Shown one piece after another: positions 28,414 to 28,638 of a stretch of DNA of 64,000 nt (its first letter is position 1; every line of letters begins with the position of its first letter). The notes beneath the pieces are model-generated. The model was not told the DNA's origin. It searched no databases and saw nothing but the letters and a program-made list of their open reading frames with translations. The translations under genes and the position numbers were made by a program. The DNA is from Clostridiales bacterium Firm_10 (GTDB taxonomy: Bacteria > Bacillota > Clostridia > Christensenellales > Aristaeellaceae). Location: positions 62,001 through 126,000 of the forward strand of contig LVAP01000007.1 in NCBI GenBank assembly GCA_001603025.1, written 5' to 3'.

Positions 28414-28459
28414 CAAAATGACAGAGGCACAGATGGACTGCGTCCATCCGCGCCTCTGT
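28414..28459 (-). terminator. Riboswitch-controlled terminator before gcvT
   Basis: On the minus strand ACAGAGGC (28459-28452) pairs with GCCTCTGT (28428-28421), with further pairing of GGATGGA and TCCATCT inside, followed by CATTTTG. The 5' arm overlaps the P1 3' strand of aptamer 2. Confidence 0.75.
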
Positions 28460-28602
28460 TTAATGACCTGAAAGATTCTCCGCGCAGGCGGATTGCTTCT
28501 TCGGTGCGTTGCCGCTTTCCAGAGGTTCGTCCCGAGCCGGTTCTTTTGCCTGAGAGTTTTGTGCCCCTTCGGCTCCATATCAAAATGATCTCTCCCGGTT
28601 CG
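28453..28602 (-). ncRNA. Tandem glycine riboswitch
   Basis: Two glycine aptamers lie in tandem on the minus strand. Aptamer 1 (about 28535-28602) has GGGAGAGATC, then GCCGAAGGGGCA, then ACTCTCAGGCAAAAG. Aptamer 2 (about 28453-28530) has CTGGAAAGCGG, then CACCGAAGAAGCAA, then GAATCTTTCAGGTCATT. Both match the conserved cores of the family. P1 of aptamer 2 is CCTCTG (28525-28520) with CAGAGG (28458-28453). That 3' strand is also the 5' arm of the terminator, so glycine binding should prevent termination (ON switch). This fits control of a glycine-degradation operon. Confidence 0.92.
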
Positions 28603-28638
28603 TTCATCCGAAGCTGCGCTATTCTTCTGTCTGAACCC

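Follow-up and report, generated by a model that had tools for sequence, protein, structure and literature searches.

Gene order and a predicted tandem glycine riboswitch upstream of gcvT

On the minus strand of the 64-kb stretch of DNA analysed here (the window), the genes of the glycine cleavage system lie behind a leader carrying two predicted glycine aptamers, raising the question of whether, and in which direction, glycine controls these genes. According to NCBIfam, the minus-strand gene order is tdh, kbl, riboswitch, gcvT, gcvH, gcvPA and gcvPB, with tdh at 30940-29888 and kbl at 29884-28697. gcvT (28393-27302) matched TIGR00528 and NF001567, and gcvH, gcvPA and gcvPB (27275-24140) matched TIGR00527, NF001696 and NF003346, all above cut-off. 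The GTG start of gcvT is our choice, and the open frame extends up to an ATG at 28447. A Shine-Dalgarno sequence, GGAGGTGA, was found just 5' of gcvT, after the predicted terminator described below and outside its hairpin.

When the whole window was scanned with Rfam cmscan, two matches reached the gathering threshold, both to RF00504 and both in the kbl-gcvT interval of the minus strand, in agreement with the tandem glycine riboswitch proposed in the preliminary description. Aptamer 1 (28607-28528, model positions 1-94) scored 58.5 bits and aptamer 2 (28525-28453, model positions 8-87) 38.5 bits, both exceeding the gathering score of 32 bits, and their model ends are 2 nt apart, forming a tandem with a short linker. 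A leader-linker kink-turn helix, P0 (span 28612-28526), was assigned by eye from the letters, without a model run, by pairing leader UUCG (28612-28609) with linker CGAA (28529-28526), and by eye the same letters are present in two leaders of the same genus, G004 and G002. The upstream limit originally given for the region, 28602, is the first base of aptamer 1 P1, but the region reaches further, as the RF00504 match starts at 28607 and the kink-turn helix extends, on its leader side, to 28612. Aptamer 1 P1 itself (28602-28533, minus strand) has an A.C mismatch at 28599/28536 (CGAACCGG with CCGGCUCG), and the helix is fully paired in G004 (CCGGUUCG). The two RF00504 aptamers are a tandem glycine riboswitch of the known gcvT type with an ordinary mechanism and, judged from their sequence, predicted glycine binding. 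A search of the whole genome to which the window belongs (179 contigs, 88% complete) found no tandem other than this one.

A likely sigma-70/A type promoter, TTGACT-17 nt-TACAAT (28667-28639, minus strand), which matches 10 of the 12 consensus letters, lies 3' of kbl and 5' of the aptamers. By itself this match hardly exceeds chance, since the scan of 4.5 kb returned two promoter-like sites versus 1.0 expected by shuffling. In G002 (locus L046), the same hexamers with the same spacing lie 5' of the riboswitch; in G004, TACAAT alone was recognized by eye and the scan picked another, weaker promoter-like site. In one batch of 20 gcvT loci, a promoter-like site was present at most 150 nt upstream in 15 of 19 leaders.

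One strand is common to aptamer 2 P1 and a predicted terminator

Aptamer 2 P1 is formed by 28525-28520 (CCUCUG) and 28458-28453 (CAGAGG), and the RF00504 match places its 3' strand at exactly the coordinates reported earlier. Downstream, a hairpin scan with shuffles uncovered a predicted terminator hairpin (28459-28421, minus strand) with a perfect 18-bp stem and the loop GCA, consisting of a 5' arm at 28459-28442 (18 nt), the loop at 28441-28439 and a 3' arm at 28438-28421. Its energy is -32.6 kcal/mol versus a shuffle mean of -11.4 (z -8.3), and none of 200 shuffles was as stable. In a terminator scan of the window (stem of at least 8 and at least 4 T in 8), it ranked second by energy among 19 terminator-like hairpins; the strongest one (37370-37328, minus strand) has a 19-bp stem, an energy of -39.7 kcal/mol and the tail GTGCTTTATT. 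The stable, G+C-rich hairpin upstream of gcvT is followed by a weak T run in the tract CATTTTGTTC (28420-28411, minus strand).

All six bases of the aptamer 2 P1 3' strand (28458-28453) lie inside the 5' arm of the hairpin, and P1 and the full hairpin are therefore mutually exclusive. The preliminary description had given the terminator 5' arm as 28452-28459; its location and the shared strand stand, and the arm is 18 nt long, the 8 nt claimed being its lower part.

Both pairings are kept among relatives

Under strict filters, an RF00504 match was found in 39 of 100 genomes, the window's own included, and 60 of 80 gcvT loci from genome contigs carried one (19, 18, 15 and 8 in successive batches of 20). 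Both aptamers exceeded the gathering score in 24 of these 60 loci; besides L111, aptamer 2 was below it in 35 of the 60 and was placed there by letters. Leaders were taken from the window, G004 and 59 of the 60 loci, L111 being omitted since about 1.4 kb separates its aptamer from gcvT. From these 61 leaders, L112, in which the aptamer 1 core motif was not found, and L092, in which the aptamer 2 core was not found, were dropped, giving 59 analysed leaders (57 distinct), all from riboswitches in front of gcvT. L092 (238-447) contains a gcvT leader with aptamer 1, no aptamer 2 core, and then a hairpin with a T run; it resembles a singlet glycine riboswitch accompanied by a ghost aptamer.

The assignment of P1 and hairpin was anchored on the start of aptamer 2, and the counts below were taken from that search. 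At least four shared bases can pair each way, in P1 and in the terminator, in 59 of 59 leaders, although the shared strand was picked as the one pairing best with the 5' strand of P1, a choice that leans towards P1. All five tested aptamer 2 P1 pairs are possible in 58 of the 59 (four in L099), and the local fold of the downstream hairpin pairs at least four of the six shared bases in all 59. The window and the 24 loci with both aptamers above the gathering score gave 25 of 25 for both the P1 and the terminator pairing measures, and both pairings are intact in the three same-genus leaders (window, G004 and G002). These results support the earlier claim that the two pairings exclude each other through a common strand. 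A shuffled control of the shared strand alone gave no discrimination, with at least four of six bases pairing in 57% of shuffled downstream sequences on average (47% for the window), because this strand is G-rich, and the pairing of this strand by itself is not counted as evidence. A sixth aptamer 2 P1 pair is possible in five of the 59 leaders, three being those of the window, G004 and G002, and the aptamer 2 core AATCTTTCAGG is present in 55 of 59, the window included.

The way in which the shared bases change was followed in triples of P1 5' base, shared base and terminator 3' base, of which the leaders gave 30 distinct strand triples. Position 2 showed T-A-T in 16, C-G-C in 5, C-G-T in 2 and T-G-C in 1, with 6 lacking a terminator partner; position 3 showed C-G-C in 20, C-G-T in 8 and T-A-T in 2; position 4 showed T-A-T in 22, T-G-C in 4, C-G-C in 3 and T-G-T in 1; and position 5 showed C-G-C in 25, C-G-T in 4 and A-G-C in 1 (L099, in which P1 is broken). 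Position 1 is invariant among the 30 triples, and in most leaders P1 does not include position 6. Thus, at three positions (2, 3 and 4) a change in the shared base is matched in both partners. At the outer shared base, position 6, A in G004 replaces the window's G at 28453, and U replaces the window's C at both partners, 28525 and 28427. A shared base that varies together with both partners is what is expected of a strand common to two exclusive helices. This three-way change among relatives points to a strand, common to aptamer 2 P1 and the terminator, that is kept for both pairings before gcvT. The attenuator had been read correctly by hand, and it offers little beyond what a riboswitch specialist would expect.

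Folding energies and the proposed mechanism

In constrained folding of the full leader with ViennaRNA, whose energies leave out ligand and tertiary contacts, the terminator form lay 7.8 kcal/mol below the P1-forced form. With so large a gap, the choice between the two must fall while the leader is being transcribed or be strongly aided by tertiary contacts. The native aptamers are absent from the minimum-energy fold of the full leader, and the fold of 28640-28453 forms aptamer 2 P1, suggesting that the decision is probably made during transcription. The P1-forced fold keeps an 11-bp upper stem that ends 7 nt before the tail; the switch therefore probably denies the base of the stem.

Together, the data make it very probable that this tandem glycine riboswitch, with glycine as the inducer, controls gcvT-gcvH-gcvPA-gcvPB by transcription attenuation, a model in which the use of the promoter, the binding of glycine, termination at the hairpin and the direction of control are predictions. 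At low glycine, aptamer 2 P1 would be weak, its 3' strand would join the downstream 18-bp hairpin and polymerase would halt at the T tract. At high glycine, the folded tandem aptamer would keep the shared strand within P1; the hairpin could still form its top 11 pairs, but its stem would stop 7 nt short of the tail, and polymerase would read through into gcvT. Since the downstream genes are glycine cleavage genes, glycine-ON is the sensible polarity. In B. subtilis, according to PMC5666159, the gcvT riboswitch is glycine-ON, and in its off state, when glycine is lacking, a Rho-independent terminator forms. By analogy with this precedent and from the nature of the downstream genes, glycine-ON appears by far the likeliest polarity.

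The T tract and alternative readings

The weak T run could alter how tightly the switch works. The T run had been described as poor, and CATTTTGTTC indeed has five T in its first eight bases and a longest run of four, starting two bases after the stem. Among the 59 leaders, at least six T were counted in the first eight tail bases in 35, five in 17 (window included) and fewer in 7, with tails misplaced in at least L058, L063, L073 and L086, where the fold stretches the stem beyond the T run, so that their counts (5, 4, 1 and 0) are not trusted. The T runs of the same-genus leaders G002 (CTATTTTTGA, a run of five) and G004 (CATTTTTTTG, a run of seven) are longer, suggesting that the weak run is a trait of this genome's copy in its genus, as judged from three leaders. 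Partial control in this genome is a possible consequence of the weak run. A poor T tract and the richer runs in most relatives are also what would be seen if the same architecture ended in an inefficient terminator, one that is leaky or acts through pausing or Rho, and on which glycine has only a slight effect. This reading, a weaker form of the attenuation model and compatible with it, seems rather unlikely to us, as the stem is unusually strong and all three same-genus leaders keep the pairing; most other terminator-like hairpins in the window scan, none of them a proven terminator, are also imperfect-tailed.

Two other readings depart further from glycine-ON attenuation and were rejected. 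The riboswitch might hide or free the gcvT ribosome-binding site, and the predicted full-leader fold does put the Shine-Dalgarno GGAG in the loop of a small hairpin. However, this site lies outside the conserved hairpin, and the small hairpin, which takes its bases from neither the aptamers nor the terminator, has letters not found in G002 or G004, which makes translational control highly improbable. OFF glycine riboswitches go with transport genes. A glycine-OFF switch is equally improbable for the leader studied here: the class may activate or repress (PMC6944388), but here the aptamer helix and the terminator are in direct competition, no antiterminator was seen between them, and the downstream genes degrade glycine.

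The tdh-kbl genes upstream

Immediately before the riboswitch-gcv operon lies tdh-kbl (30940-28697, minus strand), an arrangement found in 2 of 82 gcvT loci, those of the window and G002. The underlying search (tblastn, E 1e-20) covered 81 gcvT loci, namely the 80 and G004, with L046, which is G002, as the one positive; cases may have been missed, as the upstream sequence is shorter than 3 kb in several loci. Across 60 genomes, the window's own included, 14 had a Kbl match at E 1e-80, and by coordinates it lay beside the riboswitch only in the window's own genome (G000) and G002; the other assemblies are mostly in many contigs, so that adjacency across a contig end is conceivable there. The genes upstream in G004 (L045, 1391-4470), judged by eye from open reading frames, resemble those of a glycyl radical enzyme activase and a glycyl radical enzyme, not tdh-kbl.

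In the gap between kbl and the promoter, the only hairpin found has 7 outer pairs and -9.2 kcal/mol, and 6 of 200 shuffles were as good; in G002, the -35 hexamer follows the kbl stop at a distance of 11 nt. This weak hairpin and the short gap in G002 make read-through from tdh-kbl into the riboswitch possible. It is conceivable, if doubtful, that the window and G002 hold a threonine-to-glycine-to-C1 cluster, in which tdh-kbl transcripts may cross the riboswitch, the terminator would end them at low glycine, and glycine made by Tdh and Kbl would open the cleavage genes. Of five papers found to combine at least three of glycine riboswitch, threonine dehydrogenase, kbl and gcvT, PMC12674515 alone contains "glycine riboswitch", and it does not contain "kbl".

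Comparison with known glycine riboswitches

Tandem aptamers are also found in VCI-II of Vibrio cholerae, as in the riboswitch described here. The two also have the linker letters GGACGAACCUCUGG in common. According to PMC5666159, the VCI-II expression platform lacks a detailed in vivo characterisation. Closer to the window, 57 gcvT-linked leaders of uncultured Clostridia and other bacteria have the same common-strand platform, and most of them the same aptamer 2 core; unlike most of the compared leaders, that of the window has a possible sixth aptamer 2 P1 pair and a poorer T run. Different from B. subtilis gcvT, tdh-kbl lies just upstream here and gcvPA-gcvPB follow gcvT-gcvH. Like B. subtilis gcvT (RF00504), the riboswitch of the window has two aptamers, one expression platform, glycine cleavage genes and a predicted leader-linker kink-turn, whose role comes from the B. 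subtilis work (PMC5666159). The terminator, the kink-turn letters and the gene order gcvT-gcvH-gcvPA-gcvPB fit a glycine-ON attenuator that would work, by analogy, like that of B. subtilis gcvT.
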